Source of the DNA: Bacillota bacterium
Lineage (GTDB): Bacteria > Bacillota > Bacilli > Alicyclobacillales > SLC66
Assembly (NCBI GenBank): GCA_021785975.1
Contig: JAJYOE010000007.1
Coordinates: 1-47,646 of the forward strand
Length of the DNA stretch: 47,646 nucleotides
Reading direction: 5' to 3'
Position 1 is the stretch's first letter; every line of letters starts with the position of its first letter. Shown piece by piece: positions 20,580 through 29,944 of the stretch. A program made the position numbers and the translations under genes. Under the pieces are notes generated by a model. It searched no databases. It worked only from the letters and a program-made list of their open reading frames with translations, and was not told where the DNA came from.

Positions 20580-21788
20580 ATGAATTCAAAGGCAAAGGTC
20601 CATTTATTAAAGAGTCGCTTACTCGCTGCGGGATTAGCAGGGGGGGCGATTCTTTTCATATTTCAGCCCATCGCATACGGTGCGCAAAGTGAGGAATGGA
20701 AACCAACGCTTGCAGCACACGCCAAAGCGGCCATATTATTGGACGCCGGCACTGGCACTGTATTTTTTGCGAAAAATGAACATGCTCATCTTCCCATAGC
20801 CAGTGTGACAAAAGTCATGACGATGTTGTTGATTTATGAAGCGATGGAAAAAGGGCAAGTGGGGATGCAAGACATGGTTCGCATTTCCGACCATGCGGCA
20901 AGTATGGGAGGATCGCAAATTTACTTAAAGCCTGGCGAAACGATGACGCTTTCTGACTTGATGAAGGGGATAGCCATGGCGTCTGCCAATGATGCCGCTG
21001 TGGCCGCTGCGGAGTATGTAGCGGGTTCAGAATCAAACTTTGTGAGTAAAATGAATGAAAAAGCCCATCAACTGGGGCTCCGCGACACCCACTTTGTCAA
21101 TACGAACGGGTTGCCGGCACCTCAGCATTATTCATCAGCTTATGATGTAGCCATAATCTCCAGGGAATTGATGATGCATGAAGGAGTAACAAAGTACACG
21201 GGGGCTTACAGTGATCATCTTCGGAAAAATACGTCTAACCCGTTCTGGCTAGTCAATACCAACAAACTGGTCCATTTTTATCAGGGGATGGATGGAGTAA
21301 AAACCGGATACACTTCGGAATCAAAATTTTGCCTATCTGCAAGTGCAAAACGCGGCGAATTTCGCCTGATCGCCGTGGCGCTTGGTGAACCGAGTTCTGC
21401 CATCCGCAATGCGGAAGTTGTGGAAATGTTGAACTATGCCTTCAGTGAGTACGGAGCGAAGACCATTTACAAAAAAGGTCAGGTCGTGGTGATGGCACCC
21501 GTTGCAAAAGGTGAATCAGAGGCAGTGGCCGCCATTGCAAAGCGATCGGTGACTCAACTGATTAAAAAAGGAGATCCCCATCCCATGGGGCAGGTGATTA
21601 CAGAGATCTATCCCTTAAAGGCTCCTGTGAAAAAAGGCCAAGTCATCGGTCATATCAGTGTCTTGCAACAAGGTCATACCACCGCCCGAATCCCTCTTTT
21701 GGCTATTGCCGATGTCAAACCTGTCACCTGGTGGGAAATGCTTGGCAGGTCTTTGCATAAGATGTTTTTGTTTGGCGTTAAGGAGTAA
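20580..21788 (+). CDS. dacF: D-alanyl-D-alanine carboxypeptidase DacF (sporulation PBP)
   Basis: 402 residues, S11 peptidase. A signal peptide has a hydrophobic core at about 14-32. The three active-site motifs are SVTK (Ser75, Lys78), SAN (135-137) and KTG (241-243). A C-terminal beta domain and an amphipathic anchor around WWEMLGRSLHKMFLFG follow. DacF trims peptide side chains in the forespore and, with DacB, sets cortex cross-linking. Placed after xerD-deoB-pdp and before spoIIA as in B. subtilis, but a minus-strand regulator is inserted between dacF and spoIIA, so the classic dacF-spoIIA read-through operon is broken. The last 11 bases overlap that gene. Confidence 0.93.
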   Translation: MNSKAKVHLLKSRLLAAGLAGGAILFIFQPIAYGAQSEEWKPTLAAHAKAAILLDAGTGTVFFAKNEHAHLPIASVTKVMTMLLIYEAMEKGQVGMQDMVRISDHAASMGGSQIYLKPGETMTLSDLMKGIAMASANDAAVAAAEYVAGSESNFVSKMNEKAHQLGLRDTHFVNTNGLPAPQHYSSAYDVAIISRELMMHEGVTKYTGAYSDHLRKNTSNPFWLVNTNKLVHFYQGMDGVKTGYTSESKFCLSASAKRGEFRLIAVALGEPSSAIRNAEVVEMLNYAFSEYGAKTIYKKGQVVVMAPVAKGESEAVAAIAKRSVTQLIKKGDPHPMGQVITEIYPLKAPVKKGQVIGHISVLQQGHTTARIPLLAIADVKPVTWWEMLGRSLHKMFLFGVKE

Positions 21789-23091
21789 TGAACGTGGTCA
21801 TCTTTTGATGCCTGATCCGCGCCACCAGCGTGCAGATTCGTTCATGGCTTTCAAAGGAATGGATCTGATCGCCTAGTTTTGTGTAAAGGTTTTTCAGCGT
21901 ACGGAGCACTTGTTCACTCGTCATATATTTTTGGAGTTTCAGTAAAAGCGAAAGAGAGGTTTCTAGGCTTTCTATCGCTTTTTCCGTCTGGTCTCGTTCG
22001 GCCTCAAGCAAACCGCGTATGCGAAGCGCTTCCGCATATTCAAGACTTTCAGGTTCAGAAAGTGTAAAACTCCTTTCCAGGCTGCGTTCCGCATCGTCAT
22101 ATTGTTTTAACGATATTTCGCACGAGGCGCGTTCTGCCCAGGCATTCGCCAACTCAATGTTGCGCCCTTGGTTGTAATACTCGGTAATGACGCTAGGGAG
22201 AACGGATAGCGCGTTAGTCAGGTCTCCAGATTCTTTTAGCACGATAGCATAATTCATTTTGGCGTCTGTCAACTGGGGCTCCATTCCAAGCGAGCGATAG
22301 ATGCTAACCGCATCAAGGGCAAATTGCTGCGCCTTGTCCGAGCCTCCCTGACTGACGTACAAAACGCTCAGAATATGACATAATTCTGCCATTTCACTCA
22401 TAAATGAGGTGCCTTGAAGATCATGATAAGCTAATTCCGCATGCTCAAGTGCCTGTTCTGTATTGCCCAACCGGTAGGAGCATACGCTGATGTTTTTTCG
22501 TGTGTTGCATATGTGCTGAATTGGCGGAGTGGACAATTCGTTCAAAAAGCTGAGTGCCTTTTTAAAACAATGAAGGGCAAGAGATATTCTTTCCATGCGA
22601 AAATACAATTCACCTTGACGGTTCATGCATTGGGAACCGAGCCAATGATCTTCATGGGTAAACGCATATTGCTCAACGTCCGCATAATAATTCATCGCAG
22701 TTTCGACATCTCCGATCAGTTCCTTGGCATAGGCGATGTCGAGTTTGAGTTCGATGGAGGGAATATAGGACACACTGGACTCCTGAAGTTGCAAAAGTAA
22801 CGGAAGTGCACCCTCTCCATTAAATTCCGTTAGCATATCTCTGGCATCTTTTAAGGTTTGCATTTGCAGATTTCTGGTTTCCACTTCATTCATTAGTTCA
22901 TCGGGAGTGACACCTAATTGTTCCGCCAAAAGGGTAATAACGCGAAGCGATGGAGCTACCCGATCTGATTCAATTTGGCTGATCAGCCCAGCGGTAATTT
23001 CACCGCGTGTAAGTTCTCCCTGAGTTAATCCCTTGGATAAACGTAAAGTTTTAATTTTTGCTCCTAATGTTAATGGCTTTTTATCTTTCAT
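21778..23091 (-). CDS. HTH-TPR transcriptional regulator (NprR/RNPP-like architecture)
   Basis: 437 residues. A Cro/C1-type helix-turn-helix occupies about 8-63 (LGAKIKTLRLSKGLTQGEL, then SQIESDRVAPSLRVITLLAEQLGV). About 350 residues of helical tetratricopeptide-like repeats follow, for example AMNYYADVEQYA, ALHCFKKAL, QALEHAELAYHDL, DAERSLERS and AIESLETSLSLL. An N-terminal XRE domain plus a long TPR array is the layout of RNPP regulators such as NprR and PlcR, which bind secreted peptides; peptide binding here is unproven. ATG at 23091 has AAAGGGG upstream; an ATG at 23160 lacks one. It converges on dacF with an 11-base overlap and diverges from spoIIAA. No signal-peptide gene is visible beside it. 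Confidence 0.85.
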   Translation of the reverse strand: MKDKKPLTLGAKIKTLRLSKGLTQGELTRGEITAGLISQIESDRVAPSLRVITLLAEQLGVTPDELMNEVETRNLQMQTLKDARDMLTEFNGEGALPLLLQLQESSVSYIPSIELKLDIAYAKELIGDVETAMNYYADVEQYAFTHEDHWLGSQCMNRQGELYFRMERISLALHCFKKALSFLNELSTPPIQHICNTRKNISVCSYRLGNTEQALEHAELAYHDLQGTSFMSEMAELCHILSVLYVSQGGSDKAQQFALDAVSIYRSLGMEPQLTDAKMNYAIVLKESGDLTNALSVLPSVITEYYNQGRNIELANAWAERASCEISLKQYDDAERSLERSFTLSEPESLEYAEALRIRGLLEAERDQTEKAIESLETSLSLLLKLQKYMTSEQVLRTLKNLYTKLGDQIHSFESHERICTLVARIRHQKMTTFITP

Positions 23092-23113
23092 TTTCAATCC
23101 CCTTTCAATTTCC

Positions 23114-23122
23114 AATATAACA
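23114..23122 (-). promoter_or_regulatory. Candidate extended -10 promoter of the HTH-TPR gene
   Basis: TGT then TATATT on the minus strand, 23 bases before the ATG at 23091. No good -35. Confidence 0.4.
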
Positions 23123-23150
23123 TATTCATTAAAAAAATTTAACAAGGAGT

Positions 23151-23161
23151 TTTGTAACAAA
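23151..23161. promoter_or_regulatory. Palindrome between the HTH-TPR gene and spoIIAA
   Basis: TTTGT-A-ACAAA, a perfect inverted repeat with five-base arms, lies in the 114-base divergent region. It is upstream of the HTH-TPR -10 and about 45 bases before spoIIAA. It could be an operator for the regulator, but short A/T-rich palindromes also arise by chance. Confidence 0.35.
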
Positions 23162-23205
23162 TTTTAGCGAAACATCACTACTTTTGTCGACGGGAAGGAA
23201 AACAA

Positions 23206-23613
23206 ATGGGCACAGCGAAATCAGTCACTAGACGCAATGAATGGCAGGTGATGAGCGTGAATCTCGAACTGACCACGAAACGGGAACATCAGTTTTTGAT
23301 CGCCGCACTGACGGGAGAACTGGATCACCACAGCGCAGAAGCGGTGCGCGGCAAGCTTGATCTGGAGTTGGAAATTCATCCTGGTACCCATCTCATTCTA
23401 GATCTTAGCGGACTGACCTTTATGGACAGTTCTGGTCTGGGAGTGATCCTCGGGAGATATCGCAAAATCAAATCACTCGGCGGGGAGATGGCCATTGTCA
23501 ACATTCCACACGCGATAGAAAAAGTGGTCCAAATTTCCGGCTTGCATAAAATCATGCATTTCTATCGTTCAAAAAGTGAGGCACTGCGGGAAATGAAAGG
23601 TGGTTTACACTGA
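23206..23613 (+). CDS. spoIIAA: Anti-anti-sigma factor SpoIIAA
   Basis: Up to 135 residues, STAS domain. [12 protein letters not shown] and [14 protein letters not shown] (72-85) match B. subtilis SpoIIAA closely. Ser75 corresponds to Ser58, phosphorylated by SpoIIAB and dephosphorylated by SpoIIE. Dephosphorylated SpoIIAA frees sigma-F in the forespore. The start is ambiguous: ATG at 23206 has a good GGGAAGGA site and gives a 17-residue basic extension. GTG at 23257 follows AGGTGA and gives the family's usual length (118 residues). It overlaps spoIIAB by one base (TGATG). Confidence 0.95.
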
Positions 23614-24062
23614 TGTTTGAAAATGAGATGAATCTAAGTTTTTTGAGTCTTTCTGAAAACGAATCGTTCGCTCGTGTGGCAGTGGCCTCATTTGTAGCTC
23701 AGCTTGACCCCACATTGGAAGAGATTAATGAAGTAAAAACGGTGGTTTCCGAGGCGGTAACCAACTCCATCATTCACGGTTATCCAGAAAAAAATGGATA
23801 TATATACTTGAATTGTAAAATTTCAGGTGATAGAATGGAGCTTATCATTACCGATCACGGCATTGGTATCAAGGATCTTGAGCAAGCCCAACAACCACTT
23901 TATACTAGTCGACCTGATTTAGAGAGATCGGGAATGGGATTTACCATCATGGAAAGTTTTGTGGACCAGTTTCATGTAACGTCTGAAGAAGGGAACGGAA
24001 CGACCATACACATGGTGAAATACTTTAAGACGTCAAAACGCGCAATTTATTCCGAGGTGTAA
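23613..24062 (+). CDS. spoIIAB: Anti-sigma F factor / serine kinase SpoIIAB
   Basis: 149 residues, GHKL ATPase. [26 protein letters not shown] (N-box), [12 protein letters not shown] (G1 box) and [14 protein letters not shown] (G2 box) are nearly identical to B. subtilis SpoIIAB. It binds and blocks sigma-F with ATP, or phosphorylates SpoIIAA. The ATG at 23613 overlaps the spoIIAA stop, and sigF follows after three bases, so stoichiometric translation of all three is expected. Confidence 0.97.
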
Positions 24063-24065
24063 TCG

Positions 24066-24815
24066 ATGGAACAAGGCGCACTGCGAGAGGACCTGAAATT
24101 ACCTGACGACAGGATTCGGGAACTGATCCTGATGAGTCAACAGGGCGAAATTATAGCAAGGGACGAATTAGTCGTTCATAACCAACGCCTGGTGTGGGCT
24201 GTTGTTCAGCGTTTTTTGGGTCGCGGATACGATCCGGAAGATTTGTTTCAGATTGGCTGCATCGGATTGATGAAAGCGATTGACAAATTTGATTTAACTT
24301 ACGATGTCAAGTTTTCCACTTATGCAGTTCCCATGATTATTGGGGAAATTCAGCGATTTTTACGGGATGACCACACCTTAAAAGTGAGTAGGTCACTAAA
24401 AGAAACTGCCAGACACATTCGCAGCATTAGAGAAGAATTGGCGAAATCGCTTGGCAGGCAACCACAGTTAAACGAAATTGCAGAAGCGCTCGGAATAGAG
24501 CCGGCAGAAGTCATTTTTGCTCAGGAAGCCATGCGAATGCCTGCGTCGATCCATGAAACAGTTTTTGAAAACGATGGGGATCCGATTTATCTGGTTGATC
24601 AGATTGCGGACGCAGGAGAAGACATGTGGTTTGATCGACTGACGCTTCATGATGCGCTTTCTCATCTCCCTGAACGGGAAAGGCTGATCATTTACATGCG
24701 GTTTTTTAAAGACAAAACTCAATCAGAAGTGGCTGAAATGCTTCATATCTCACAAGTTCAGGTATCTCGACTAGAAAAACGGATTTTACTGAAAATTCGC
24801 GAGTTGATGGAGTGA
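24066..24815 (+). CDS. sigF: RNA polymerase sporulation sigma factor SigF
   Basis: 249 residues. Region 2 contains PEDLFQIGCIGLMKAIDKFD and FSTYAVPMIIGEIQRFLRDD. Region 3 includes LKETARHIRSIREELAKSLGRQP. Region 4 is LPERERLIIYMRFFKDKTQSEVAEMLHISQVQVSRLEKR. The whole pattern is that of the forespore sigma factors F and G; position after spoIIAB identifies F. GAGGTG precedes the ATG. The end of the gene may carry a sigma-G-like promoter for spoVA (CATACT at 24826-24831), with a weak -35. Confidence 0.96.
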   Translation: MEQGALREDLKLPDDRIRELILMSQQGEIIARDELVVHNQRLVWAVVQRFLGRGYDPEDLFQIGCIGLMKAIDKFDLTYDVKFSTYAVPMIIGEIQRFLRDDHTLKVSRSLKETARHIRSIREELAKSLGRQPQLNEIAEALGIEPAEVIFAQEAMRMPASIHETVFENDGDPIYLVDQIADAGEDMWFDRLTLHDALSHLPERERLIIYMRFFKDKTQSEVAEMLHISQVQVSRLEKRILLKIRELME

Positions 24816-24828
24816 CAATTTTCTCTCA

Positions 24829-24875
24829 TACTCCCCAAAATCTTCGGGTAACTTAATCGCAGGAGGTGGGGAGTG
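24829..24875 (+). promoter_or_regulatory. Possible Shine-Dalgarno-masking stem before spoVAC
   Basis: ACTCCCC at 24830-24836 can pair with GGGGAGT at 24868-24874, with a further T-G wobble. The right arm overlaps the ribosome site and touches the start codon of spoVAC. It lies in the 60-base gap after sigF. No T-run follows, so it is not a terminator. Confidence 0.4.
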
Positions 24876-25334
24876 ATGAGCGTTAGAATGGGCGAAGAAC
24901 AAAAACAATATCAGGAGTTCCTCAAATCGCGTCAACCCGCGAAACATTGGTTAAAAAACTCCATTCGCGCCTTTTTTGCCGGTGGAATCATCTGCCTGAT
25001 CGGTCAGGGGATACAAGAGACGTTTGTTCATTTTTATCATATGAGCGAGCAAATGGCGGGAAATCCCACTGTGGCTATCCTCATATTTTTATCTGCGCTA
25101 TTTACGGGCATTGGCGTGTATGACGTATTCGCCAGGTATGCGGGAGCAGGGTCAGCGGTGCCTGTGACCGGATTTGCTAATGCCATCGCTTCTGCCGCAC
25201 TGGAACACAAATCAGAAGGGTACATTACCGGAATTGGAACCAATATGTTCAAGGTGGCCGGGCCCGTCATTGTATACGGTGTGGTGGCGGCCTTTTTTGT
25301 CGGGCTGGTTCGTTATGTGTTTACCAATTTTTAA
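24876..25334 (+). CDS. spoVAC: Stage V sporulation protein AC
   Basis: 152 residues. Several hydrophobic spans are visible: AFFAGGIICLIGQG, PTVAILIFLSALFTGIGVYD, and a last span around GVVAAFFVGLVRYVF. The Gly-rich segment FARYAGAGSAVPVTGFANAI is conserved in the family. SpoVAC forms a mechanosensitive channel in the spore inner membrane for dipicolinic acid (shown in B. subtilis). ATG at 24876 or GTG at 24873, both behind AGGAGG. First gene of a three-gene spoVA set placed directly after sigF; spoVAA, AB, AEa and AF are not present here. Confidence 0.94.
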   Translation: MSVRMGEEQKQYQEFLKSRQPAKHWLKNSIRAFFAGGIICLIGQGIQETFVHFYHMSEQMAGNPTVAILIFLSALFTGIGVYDVFARYAGAGSAVPVTGFANAIASAALEHKSEGYITGIGTNMFKVAGPVIVYGVVAAFFVGLVRYVFTNF

Positions 25335-25366
25335 TCATTTATTTTCACCAAACGAGGAGTGATCTG

Positions 25367-26380
25367 ATGAAAATTGGTAAACAGACCTGGCAGTTTGCAT
25401 CGGAACCACGTGTGATTTCTACAGGTTCAGCCGTTGGAGAAAAAGAAGGAAAAGGGCCACTTGGCATCGATTTTGATCTGGTAATTACCGATCCCTATGT
25501 CGGGCAAAAAACATGGGAAAAAGCGGAACGCAAAATGATGGAGATGGCTCAAGATAAAGCGATTGAAAAAGCCGGCCTAAGCATGAACAATATGGACATC
25601 ATTATTGCTGGTGATTTGCTTTGCCAAAATATCTCGGCCAATTTTGCGGCACGAACAGCGGGACGTCCCTATCTTGGTGTGTTTAGCGCCTGCGCAACGA
25701 GTATGGAGGCGGTGGCGCTGTCTGCGCTCATGGTGGACGCCGGGCAGGCAGATTATGCGCTGGCGGCGGTGAGTAGCCATAACAGCACCGCAGAGCGGAT
25801 GTTTCGTTTTCCCACTGAGTACGGTGCGCAGAAACCGCCAACTGCCCATTCCACCGTCACAGGGGCAGGGGCGTTAGTGATCGGGCGTGCTCCAAATGGG
25901 ATTAAAATCACCCATGCGACCATTGGAACAGTCACTGATTTAGGGGTACAAAGCCCCTGGGAAATGGGTGCCGCCATGGCACCTGCAGCAGCGCAAACGA
26001 TTGACCAGCATTTTCGTGACACAGGCAGGCAACCGACAGATTACGATGCCATCGCGACTGGCGATCTGGCGCGTGTTGGCCATCCGATTGCGAGTGAATT
26101 GCTTTTGCAAAAAGGTTGGAATTTAGGGGATAGGTTCACGGACTGCGGGATCTTAATTTATGATCCTGACTCTCAACATGAAGTGTTCAGTGGTGGAAGC
26201 GGCGCCGCTTGTTGTGCGGTAGTGACATTTTCGCATCTCTTCAACAAATTGACCACCGGAATTTGGAAACGAATTTTGATTGTTGCGACAGGGGCGTTAT
26301 TGTCGTCTGTTTCCGCCCAACAAAATGAGACTGTTCCATGCGTTGCTCATGCTGTCGTTTTTGAAGCAGATCAAAATTAG
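25367..26380 (+). CDS. spoVAD: Stage V sporulation protein AD
   Basis: 337 residues, one shorter than I recall for B. subtilis SpoVAD. Thiolase-like fold with LLCQNISANFAART, GVFSACATSMEAVALSA and GGSGAACCAVVTFSHL. SpoVAD binds dipicolinic acid and sits on the outer face of the spore inner membrane (known for B. subtilis). GAGGAG precedes the ATG. Tight spacing to spoVAC and spoVAE supports one operon. Confidence 0.96.
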   Translation: MKIGKQTWQFASEPRVISTGSAVGEKEGKGPLGIDFDLVITDPYVGQKTWEKAERKMMEMAQDKAIEKAGLSMNNMDIIIAGDLLCQNISANFAARTAGRPYLGVFSACATSMEAVALSALMVDAGQADYALAAVSSHNSTAERMFRFPTEYGAQKPPTAHSTVTGAGALVIGRAPNGIKITHATIGTVTDLGVQSPWEMGAAMAPAAAQTIDQHFRDTGRQPTDYDAIATGDLARVGHPIASELLLQKGWNLGDRFTDCGILIYDPDSQHEVFSGGSGAACCAVVTFSHLFNKLTTGIWKRILIVATGALLSSVSAQQNETVPCVAHAVVFEADQN

Positions 26381-26397
26381 CTAGGGGGAAATTGGCG

Positions 26398-26760
26398 ATG
26401 AGCGGTGTGGGAATCTTTATCATGGCATTTTTGGTGGGGGGATTCATTTGTGTTATCGGTCAGTTGATGTTTGATTTGACCAAACTGACTCCTGCCCATG
26501 TGATGACCATTTTGGTCGTGGCGGGAGCTGTGCTTGAAGGATTTGGGCTGTATGATCCACTCGTCAGATTTGCGGGGGCTGGCGCCACTGTGCCTATCAC
26601 GTCCTTTGGCAATGCGCTCGTACACGGTGCAATGGCAGAGGCCAAGCAGTATGGGATCCTCGGTCTTATCACAGGAATATTTGAAGTTACCAGTGCCGGA
26701 ATTTCTTCAGCTATCATTTTTGGCTTTCTTTCTGCCGCGGTATTTCGCCCTCGTGGATAA
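26398..26760 (+). CDS. spoVAE: Stage V sporulation protein AE (SpoVAEb type)
   Basis: 120 residues. Membrane spans are FIMAFLVGGFICVIGQLMF, VMTILVVAGAVLEGFG and a C-terminal ISSAIIFGFLSAAVF. The segment VRFAGAGATVPITSFGNALV parallels the FARYAGAGSAVPVTGFANAI segment of SpoVAC, showing the two proteins are related. It is part of the dipicolinate channel. ATG at 26398 has AGGGGGA eight bases upstream; a TTG at 26392 is too close to it. Confidence 0.94.
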   Translation: MSGVGIFIMAFLVGGFICVIGQLMFDLTKLTPAHVMTILVVAGAVLEGFGLYDPLVRFAGAGATVPITSFGNALVHGAMAEAKQYGILGLITGIFEVTSAGISSAIIFGFLSAAVFRPRG

Positions 26761-28232: not shown

Positions 28233-28394
28233 ATGCTAACCATCCTATCCTGGATACCAAGGATTGCTCGTTTCGTGCAGATGTTTCAGGGAGTTGCTGG
28301 AGCCATGGGGCCATTCATGCCTTGGATTGGTTCTATTGTTTCGCGCTTTCGCGGTGGCAGTCGCATCGCTCACTCGTCCATGGCGCGTGGATAA
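28233..28394 (+). CDS. 53-residue amphipathic small protein
   Basis: An open frame with an excellent GAGGAGGG site seven bases before the ATG. It starts MLTILSWIPRIARFVQMFQG and ends in a basic tail (FRGGSRIAHSSMARG). The first 35 residues would form an amphipathic, Met- and Trp-containing helix. I do not recognise it. Its end overlaps the 3' end of the convergent carboxypeptidase gene by 25 bases. Upstream, CTATA, 18 bases, CATACC (28182-28210) is a weak sigma-G-like match, and ATACC-TT-GGTAT (28206-28217) is a small inverted repeat. A forespore or membrane-acting peptide is possible but unproven. Confidence 0.55.
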   Translation: MLTILSWIPRIARFVQMFQGVAGAMGPFMPWIGSIVSRFRGGSRIAHSSMARG

Positions 28395-29725
28395 ACCATG
28401 GCTCTTGACAAAGTGGTTGTCTTTTTCTTTTTCTTAATACCTGCCCTGCCGATCAGTGAAAATCCCAGACAAACCAGTGTAAGGCTGAGCGCAGGAAGTT
28501 CAGGCGCTCTGGCCGGTGGTGTGACAGGAACTGGGATCGTCTTGTCAATTTGAACCGGTAAAGTCATTTTCATGTGCTCAAAATCAATCGTCGCCGAACC
28601 GATCACCGCACCTTTCTCTACGCCATACGCAATCGGAGCGATAATCAGTGAATGGACAAAAGGCATCGATGAGTCCAGAGGCACGGGAGAATGGTTATCG
28701 CGTATGGATTCAATTCCCTGGGTAACAGGGACATTGGTCAAAGAACTGGGCATTTTGAGATTTGCGGCAGCATGATTCTTTTGATTGACGGGCACCATGG
28801 CGGTAAGCGGACTTTCTAGTGACAGTGTTGCTTGGTGGCCGCCTAATGACAGGGAGGCCACTTTAGTTCCCGCGGGGAGAATCGTCGATTCCTTAAAAGA
28901 GGAAAAACCGTAATTCAACAGACTTGTCGCATCCGTCTGCATTTCGCCGAGGAGAGGTACTTTCATCAGCACGGCGAGCAATGTGTGCCCGTTTCGTGTC
29001 GCAGAAACCACCATGGTTTGCTCCGCCTGGTCTGTCCATCCTGTCTTTATTCCGATTGCCCCCGGGTAAGTCCAAAGCATCTCGTTCAGGTTGGACAAAT
29101 ACGATGTCCATTCTTTTCCCTTCCACAAATAGTATTTCGTAGAGACAATTTTACGAAACTCAGGATTTTGCATCGCTTGCCGCGCGATCAGCGCCATATC
29201 GTAGGCGCAAGTGTAGTGATCAGCATTCTGCAGCCCATTCGGATTGACAAAATGCGTATTCACTGCACCCAATTGTTTGGCTTCCTGATTCATCATGTTG
29301 GCAAAGCCCTTTACTGAACCGCCATAGTGTTCGGCAATGGCGACAGCCGCATCATTGGCTGAATCGATCAGCAGTCCATATAGCATCTGTTGCAAGCTAT
29401 GCACTTCACCAGGAACGAGATAAACCTTATCAGGTTCCTGATTTACTGCGTTGACAGATGCTTTGATGGGATCATTTAAATGGCCGTATTTAAGCGCCAG
29501 AAGCGCCGTCATGATTTTTGTGATGCTAGCTGGATAAAGTCGTTCATAGGGATTTTTTTCATAAAGGATCTGACCGGTGGTCATATCCATTAATACCGCG
29601 CTTTGAGAGAGTAACGTGGGCGGATTAGGGGCAGTCGTCGAGGCATGTACCGAAGTCGACACTGCAAAAAGTAAGGTGGACGGAAGCACCAATAAGTATC
29701 CAACGGTTTTTATCCATTTGCGCAA
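28370..29725 (-). CDS. D-alanyl-D-alanine carboxypeptidase (S11), second paralogue
   Basis: 451 residues with an N-terminal hydrophobic signal (about 8-27). Motifs SITK (Ser67, Lys70), SAN (121-123) and KTG (226-228) are intact. The C-terminus has a membrane span and a basic tail (SLTLVCLGFSLIG then KKKKK), unlike the amphipathic anchor usual in this family. It trims pentapeptides in vegetative or sporulation wall. TTG at 29725 follows GGAAGGGA; longer in-frame starts reach back into the rib riboswitch and are unlikely. It is divergent from the rib operon and one of three S11 enzymes in the window. Confidence 0.9.
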   Translation of the reverse strand: MRKWIKTVGYLLVLPSTLLFAVSTSVHASTTAPNPPTLLSQSAVLMDMTTGQILYEKNPYERLYPASITKIMTALLALKYGHLNDPIKASVNAVNQEPDKVYLVPGEVHSLQQMLYGLLIDSANDAAVAIAEHYGGSVKGFANMMNQEAKQLGAVNTHFVNPNGLQNADHYTCAYDMALIARQAMQNPEFRKIVSTKYYLWKGKEWTSYLSNLNEMLWTYPGAIGIKTGWTDQAEQTMVVSATRNGHTLLAVLMKVPLLGEMQTDATSLLNYGFSSFKESTILPAGTKVASLSLGGHQATLSLESPLTAMVPVNQKNHAAANLKMPSSLTNVPVTQGIESIRDNHSPVPLDSSMPFVHSLIIAPIAYGVEKGAVIGSATIDFEHMKMTLPVQIDKTIPVPVTPPARAPELPALSLTLVCLGFSLIGRAGIKKKKKTTTLSRAMVYPRAMDE

Positions 29726-29767
29726 TGATAAAATTCCCTTCCATATATGTTTCGCTTTGCAATAGGG

Positions 29768-29796
29768 TTGCAACACTTGTATACTGACATTATAAC
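29768..29796 (+). promoter_or_regulatory. Sigma-A promoter of the riboflavin operon
   Basis: TTGCAA, exactly 17 bases, TATAAC. Predicted start near 29803, a few bases before the first pairing element of the FMN riboswitch. Confidence 0.75.
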
Positions 29797-29797
29797 A
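29789..29797 (-). promoter_or_regulatory. Candidate extended -10 promoter of the divergent carboxypeptidase gene
   Basis: TGT then TATAAT on the minus strand, about 64 bases before the TTG start at 29725. It shares bases with the -10 of the rib promoter on the other strand. Confidence 0.45.
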
Positions 29798-29809
29798 AAT
29801 TAATCGTAC

Positions 29810-29944
29810 TCCTTCGGGGCAGGGTGAGGCAAATGCCAATTCCCGATCGGTGGTGACGCATCAGAAAGATGCGAAGTCCACGAGCCTTTTGGCATGAACT
29901 GGTGTGAATCCAGTACCGACGGTATAGTCCGGATGTAAGAAGGA
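29810..29944 (+). ncRNA. FMN riboswitch (RFN element)
   Basis: The conserved FMN aptamer sequence is readable throughout: TTCGGGGCAGGGTGA near the 5' end, ATTCCCGATCGGTGGT, CCACGAGCC, then ACCGACGGTATAGTCCGGAT and a closing AAGAAGGA. The closing stem P1 pairs TCCTTC (29810-29815) with GAAGGA (29939-29944). FMN binding is expected to favour the terminator that follows and reduce transcription of ribDE-ribBA-ribH (established for this class). Confidence 0.97.

Follow-up and report, generated by a model that had tools for sequence, protein, structure and literature searches.

An HTH-TPR regulator gene kept between dacF and spoIIA throughout the Alicyclobacillaceae is a candidate for additional control of sporulation

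The window analysed here is a stretch of 47,646 nucleotides from a Bacillota bacterium (GTDB lineage Alicyclobacillales; SLC66), taken from an incomplete assembly (GCA_021785975.1, contig JAJYOE010000007.1; 60% complete). It contains spoIIA, which switches on compartment-specific transcription during sporulation. The canonical arrangement, in which dacF immediately precedes spoIIAA and is read the same way, is absent from the window; the gene of an HTH-TPR regulator stands between the two. The genes and promoter elements of the locus are the following.

20580 to 21788, + strand: dacF, a D-Ala-D-Ala carboxypeptidase gene (Peptidase_S11 and PBP5_C), convergent with the regulator gene and overlapping it by 11 bases
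21778 to 23091, - strand: HTH-TPR regulator, 437 aa, ATG at 23091, HTH at residues 9-66 and TPR superhelix at residues ~72-435
23114 to 23122, - strand: extended -10 (TGTTATATT) of a sigma-A-type promoter of the regulator, predicted by motif reading
23182 to 23190, + strand: 0A box TTTTGTCGA of the spoIIA promoter, within the conserved CTA[GC]TTTTGTC
23195 to 23203, + strand: sigma-H -35 (AAGGAAAAC; consensus here GCAGGAWNN), conserved upstream of spoIIAA
23215 to 23221, + strand: sigma-H -10 (GCGAAAT), conserved upstream of spoIIAA
23251 to 23613, + strand: spoIIAA with corrected start, ATG 23251 or GTG 23257 (TIGR02886 cut-off reached)
23613 to 24062, + strand: spoIIAB (TIGR01925 cut-off reached)
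24066 to 24815, + strand: sigF (spoIIAC; TIGR02885 cut-off reached)

The original prediction, made from the sequence of the window, described a 437-residue HTH-TPR regulator lying antisense between dacF and spoIIAA and overlapping dacF by 11 bases. The coordinates bear out this layout, and the architecture was confirmed by HTH_3 (37.6 bits, cut-off 23) and TPR_12 (58.4 bits, cut-off 30.1), both above the curated cut-offs. The start of spoIIAA had been placed at 23206, which proved wrong: that ATG sits between the -35 and -10 of the conserved sigma-H-type promoter. Because SpoIIAA homology begins further downstream, we place the start at ATG 23251 or GTG 23257. The interval assigned to the regulator had been drawn to 23205 on the basis of the wrong start, and this end is therefore a start-codon artefact; the divergent intergenic region measures ~160 bp, not 114 bp.

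Downstream of the operon (window positions 24873-26760) come a spoVAC/AEB-type gene, spoVAD, a further spoVAE-like ORF and then a lysA-like ORF, with no recognised spoVAA or spoVAB ORFs in between. Sequence reading also revealed a second DacA/DacF-type D-Ala-D-Ala carboxypeptidase ORF (28370-29839, - strand) near this spoIIA-spoVA-lysA cluster.

The elements around 23206, CTACTTTTGTCGACGGGAAGGAAAAC...GCGAAAT, form a 0A box with a sigma-H -35 and -10 and occur upstream of spoIIAA in nearly all sampled Bacilli. This promoter was equally conserved in genomes with and without the regulator. Conserved intergenic blocks were considered as an operator of the regulator and rejected, since they are the spoIIA promoter itself and are present in regulator-less genomes too. 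By eye, no other dyad common to both families of the window's order was found in the divergent region. On the regulator side, the -10 element recurs as TG-N-TATANT in most of the window's family and lies ~30-50 bp from the regulator start codon in many genomes; apart from this extended -10, no classical -35 was found. Sigma-70 and terminator scans of the window gave results no better than those with shuffled sequences.

Matches to the regulator were obtained in 57 of 61 genomes (the window's genome and its 60 nearest relatives). By tblastn of the flanks, every best-hit locus in both families had the order dacF> <regulator spoIIAA> (spoIIAB> sigF>) as far as the contigs reached. Within the window's order, 48 of 59 genomes, from two families, have the regulator here, counting matches with E < 1e-80 that adjoin spoIIA, or dacF or spoIIAA where the contig breaks, and it was directly divergent from spoIIAA wherever the contig was intact. 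Named carriers are Alicyclobacillus pomorum, A. herbarius, A. macrosporangiidus, A. kakegawensis, Sulfoacidibacillus thermotolerans and Ferroacidibacillus organovorans. The arrangement singled out in the original prediction thus recurs across related genera in dozens of genomes, and this deep conservation makes it more than a chance event.

Of the remaining 11 genomes, three had no SpoIIAB over the cut-off and eight, in four genera (G010; G032 and G051; G049, G050 and G053; G054 and G055), had spoIIA without an intact regulator. In G055, regulator residues ~200-281 are still recognisable beside spoIIAA (E 7e-10), and G054 has kept a shorter remnant (E 3e-4), so that loss in this genus proceeded by decay in place; searches of the other loss genomes, outside that one genus, gave chance-level matches only. 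The regulator was lost later in at least four genera, and because their spoIIA is intact it is dispensable. Apparent stages of decay can be seen in genus g17 (L163, L165, G037): G037 has a short copy whose open frame runs to 415 codons, the profile match containing a stop, and G054 and G055 have fragments. G043 (family f2, 97% complete) has Spo0A_C but lacks both the regulator at the locus and a SpoIIAB match above the family cut-off; it is a candidate for a non-sporulating member or for an assembly gap.

For comparison outside the order, spoIIA loci were taken from 38 genomes representing 37 other families of the class. dacF was directly before spoIIAA, with no regulator, in 30 of these families (31 loci); three had neither arrangement, and four (f14, f36, f37 and f44) had an antisense HTH-TPR gene at the spot. 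The regulator is also carried at the locus by Tumebacillus and by one further metagenome assembly (DeMMO6_24). Two genes lie between the regulator and spoIIAA in f37 and Tumebacillus and one in DeMMO6_24, and close coupling to the spoIIA promoter is therefore not universal. NCBI taxonomy assigns Tumebacillus and Sulfoacidibacillus to the family Alicyclobacillaceae. Alicyclobacillus itself is also a member of this family. Across the Alicyclobacillaceae, taken broadly, the regulator occupies this spot, and its position and orientation have been preserved over deep evolutionary time. A search at phylum level, in which locus position played no part, matched 9 of 81 genomes (the window's own included) and yielded only distant HTH-TPR proteins. 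HTH-TPR paralogues are greatly expanded in Tumebacillus (L051-L118), some genomes having ten or more, and in the tree this set comprises the closest paralogues of the gene at spoIIA.

A quick maximum-likelihood tree placed the syntenic copies in two groups. Constraining all 40 syntenic sequences to one clade gave a likelihood 9.5 log units higher than that of the free tree and was not rejected by the AU test (p 0.784), which makes one ancient insertion likely. The simplest account would be such an insertion followed by vertical descent in place and several later losses. Between the window and its nearest relative, dN/dS was 0.021 for the regulator, 0.062 for dacF, 0.089 for spoIIAA, 0.060 for spoIIAB and 0.011 for sigF, values that are rough since synonymous sites are near saturation; judged by these ratios, the regulator is under strong purifying selection. 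Identity between the two families of the order was 47% in the HTH, 19% in the TPR part and 63% in the recognition-helix stretch. The far better conservation of the HTH suggests that DNA binding has been kept. In the TPR part, the groove-type residues N280 and E320 are conserved in 28 of 29 sequences, N280 standing, by sequence reading, at an Asn-ladder position.

The best explanation of these findings, which we advance tentatively and with rather less than even confidence, is that the gene encodes a ligand-responsive transcription factor that regulates itself and adjusts spoIIA, following one ancient insertion at the locus. The insertion would also have placed a convergent gene at a site where, in most other families, dacF immediately precedes spoIIAA on the same strand. 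We infer ligand control from the conserved polar residues of the TPR groove, which would bind a peptide or a protein partner and thereby set the activity of the HTH. The conserved HTH, in turn, would bind in the divergent region, between the sigma-A-type promoter of the regulator gene and the Spo0A/sigma-H promoter that serves spoIIA. The divergent layout and the conserved -10 element of the regulator suggest that it would autoregulate and also adjust the supply of SpoIIAA, SpoIIAB and sigma-F, for which it would not be indispensable. Local control of spoIIA by the regulator is plausible; a tight cis role is argued against by the spoIIA promoter, which is unchanged in genomes without the regulator, and by the intervening genes in Tumebacillus.

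The same two observations are consistent with a regulator that acts in trans on other genes, for example on transition-state or stress genes, its place at spoIIA being an inherited neighbourhood or a Spo0A-linked expression window. We regard this as a real possibility, next in probability to the favoured explanation. The intervening genes in Tumebacillus and DeMMO6_24 have not dislodged the regulator, and many HTH-TPR paralogues are encoded elsewhere in these genomes. Against action in trans stands the antisense position beside spoIIA, which has been strictly kept in both families of the order and outside it, although over such evolutionary distances the order of bacterial genes is usually lost.

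We consider it improbable that the regulator is a genuine RRNPP quorum-sensing receptor, in which an imported peptide gates the sigma-F operon and the propeptide gene lies elsewhere. The original prediction had likened the architecture of the protein to that of NprR and other peptide-sensing RNPP regulators. An AlphaFold2 model built from 50 sequences (pLDDT 93, pTM 0.83) consists of an HTH and a TPR superhelix of about nine TPRs, and in VIA-align comparisons its TPR part aligned from end to end with RapI (Z 27.2 over 348 residues) and NprR (5dbk; Z 25.1 over 347 residues). An RNPP-like fold was thus upheld by structure prediction. It is not specific, however: eukaryotic LGN matched the model as well as or better than the RNPP proteins (Z 29.3), as did kinesin light chain and designed TPRs. 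Since generic TPR proteins score at least as high, the predicted fold gives no specific indication of peptide sensing; it is compatible with an RNPP receptor and does not single one out. A single-sequence PDB search gave ComR and PlcR through the HTH only and no NprR, so that homology to NprR at family level was not found, and a profile search found NprR only among generic TPR proteins.

The published RRNPP signature combines a small propeptide, its secretion, receptor length, TPRs and adjacency (PMC10075063). With 437 aa the regulator lies within the receptor range of 250-500 aa (PMC10075063), and it has the TPR domain and the N-terminal HTH of the DNA-binding subfamilies. Its conserved N280, a putative groove asparagine, may correspond to the asparagine that makes the hallmark backbone contact in RNPP proteins (Asn227 in RapF; PMC3601957). 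Pfam RNPP_C, on the other hand, scored 16.0 bits in the regulator, below the gathering score of 26.5, which not every RNPP protein need exceed. A scan of both flanks by start codon, SD and crude signal rules revealed no candidate propeptide gene (small, 10-100 aa, secreted) next to the regulator in the window, and across 37 syntenic loci none was conserved beyond close relatives. Candidates confined to close relatives overlap the regulator's own start in antisense, and the downstream flank is occupied by the 3' end of dacF. For lack of an adjacent propeptide gene we do not class the regulator as RRNPP, and the peptide-sensing membership originally proposed was not sustained; the protein may work like an RRNPP receptor whose ligand is encoded elsewhere.

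We think it very unlikely that the locus is mainly a cis element, with the inserted gene or its convergent transcription insulating spoIIA from dacF read-through or lowering dacF by antisense. dacF stands directly before spoIIAA in most other families, as described above, and besides the 11-base overlap in the window, 3' overlaps of 4-44 bases between regulator and dacF occur in 10 of 37 loci, each of which belongs to the window's family. At the remaining 27 loci, however, the stops are separated by 28-227 bp, many with a hairpin between them (median regulator-dacF distance over the 37 loci, 69). The overlap is thus confined to part of the window's own family; the antisense interference with dacF suggested in the original prediction is not supported, and antisense control of dacF is unlikely to be the conserved function. 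The protein, above all its HTH, is also under strong purifying selection, which an insulator would not need. That the arrangement is a chance insertion or an assembly artefact of one genome is already refuted by its presence in isolates (A. pomorum, A. herbarius, A. macrosporangiidus, S. thermotolerans and F. organovorans) and in many MAGs.

At the same junction, loci of the second family (L037, L028, L030, L033, L034, L038, L117, L158, L170 and L173) share a conserved element with partial dyad character, ATTTCCnGnnnAATAAnAnnnnTCGA on the strand of the regulator. It lies at the regulator stop or immediately beyond it, ahead of the dacF stop, and is kept in the regulator-less L163. As a regulon site it was rejected: exact genome-wide matches lay at the junction or were chance-like, several of them inside coding sequence, and were otherwise rare.

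Bacilli are usually assumed to share one mode of spoIIA control, namely Spo0A~P and sigma-H together with dacF-linked forespore transcription. A literature search found no paper describing this regulator at spoIIA; a well-conserved regulator inside a core sporulation locus has apparently gone undescribed, and its function is given here as we infer it. Judged by sequence, it is a good candidate for an extra control of sporulation in Alicyclobacillus, Tumebacillus and their acid-loving relatives. Rather unlikely, in our estimate, is the further-reaching reading of a lineage-wide extra sigma-F checkpoint, in which a TPR-gated transcription factor would add a peptide or partner signal to the decision made by Spo0A~P and sigma-H; if true, such a checkpoint would be absent from the Bacillus subtilis paradigm. 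Retention of the regulator across an entire branch, with loss in a few genera whose spoIIA is intact, amounts to a natural experiment with the same promoter in the presence and absence of the regulator. Because Alicyclobacillus spores cause spoilage of acidic drinks and related bacteria inhabit acid mine drainage, a lineage-specific input into sporulation would be of practical use.

Among known systems, NprR of the Bacillus cereus group resembles the regulator in having an XRE HTH followed by a TPR superhelix of similar length and in its tie to sporulation biology. The two differ in sequence (~13% identity) and in setting: NprR is encoded beside its own peptide gene, whereas the regulator lies antisense at spoIIA with no nprX-like propeptide gene beside it. 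Rap genes have a Phr gene beside them. Rap phosphatases and RapI-type anti-activators share the TPR superhelix, but carry a three-helix bundle instead of an HTH and act by protein contact (PMC3601957). Other HTH-TPR regulators of the Alicyclobacillaceae, such as the Tumebacillus set, have the same domain architecture and are not located at spoIIA; the tree allows the syntenic copies to form a clade of their own. In other Bacilli, the dacF-spoIIA-sigF locus lacks a regulator between dacF and spoIIAA (30 of 37 families outside the order), yet it consists of the same genes under the same 0A-box/sigma-H promoter.
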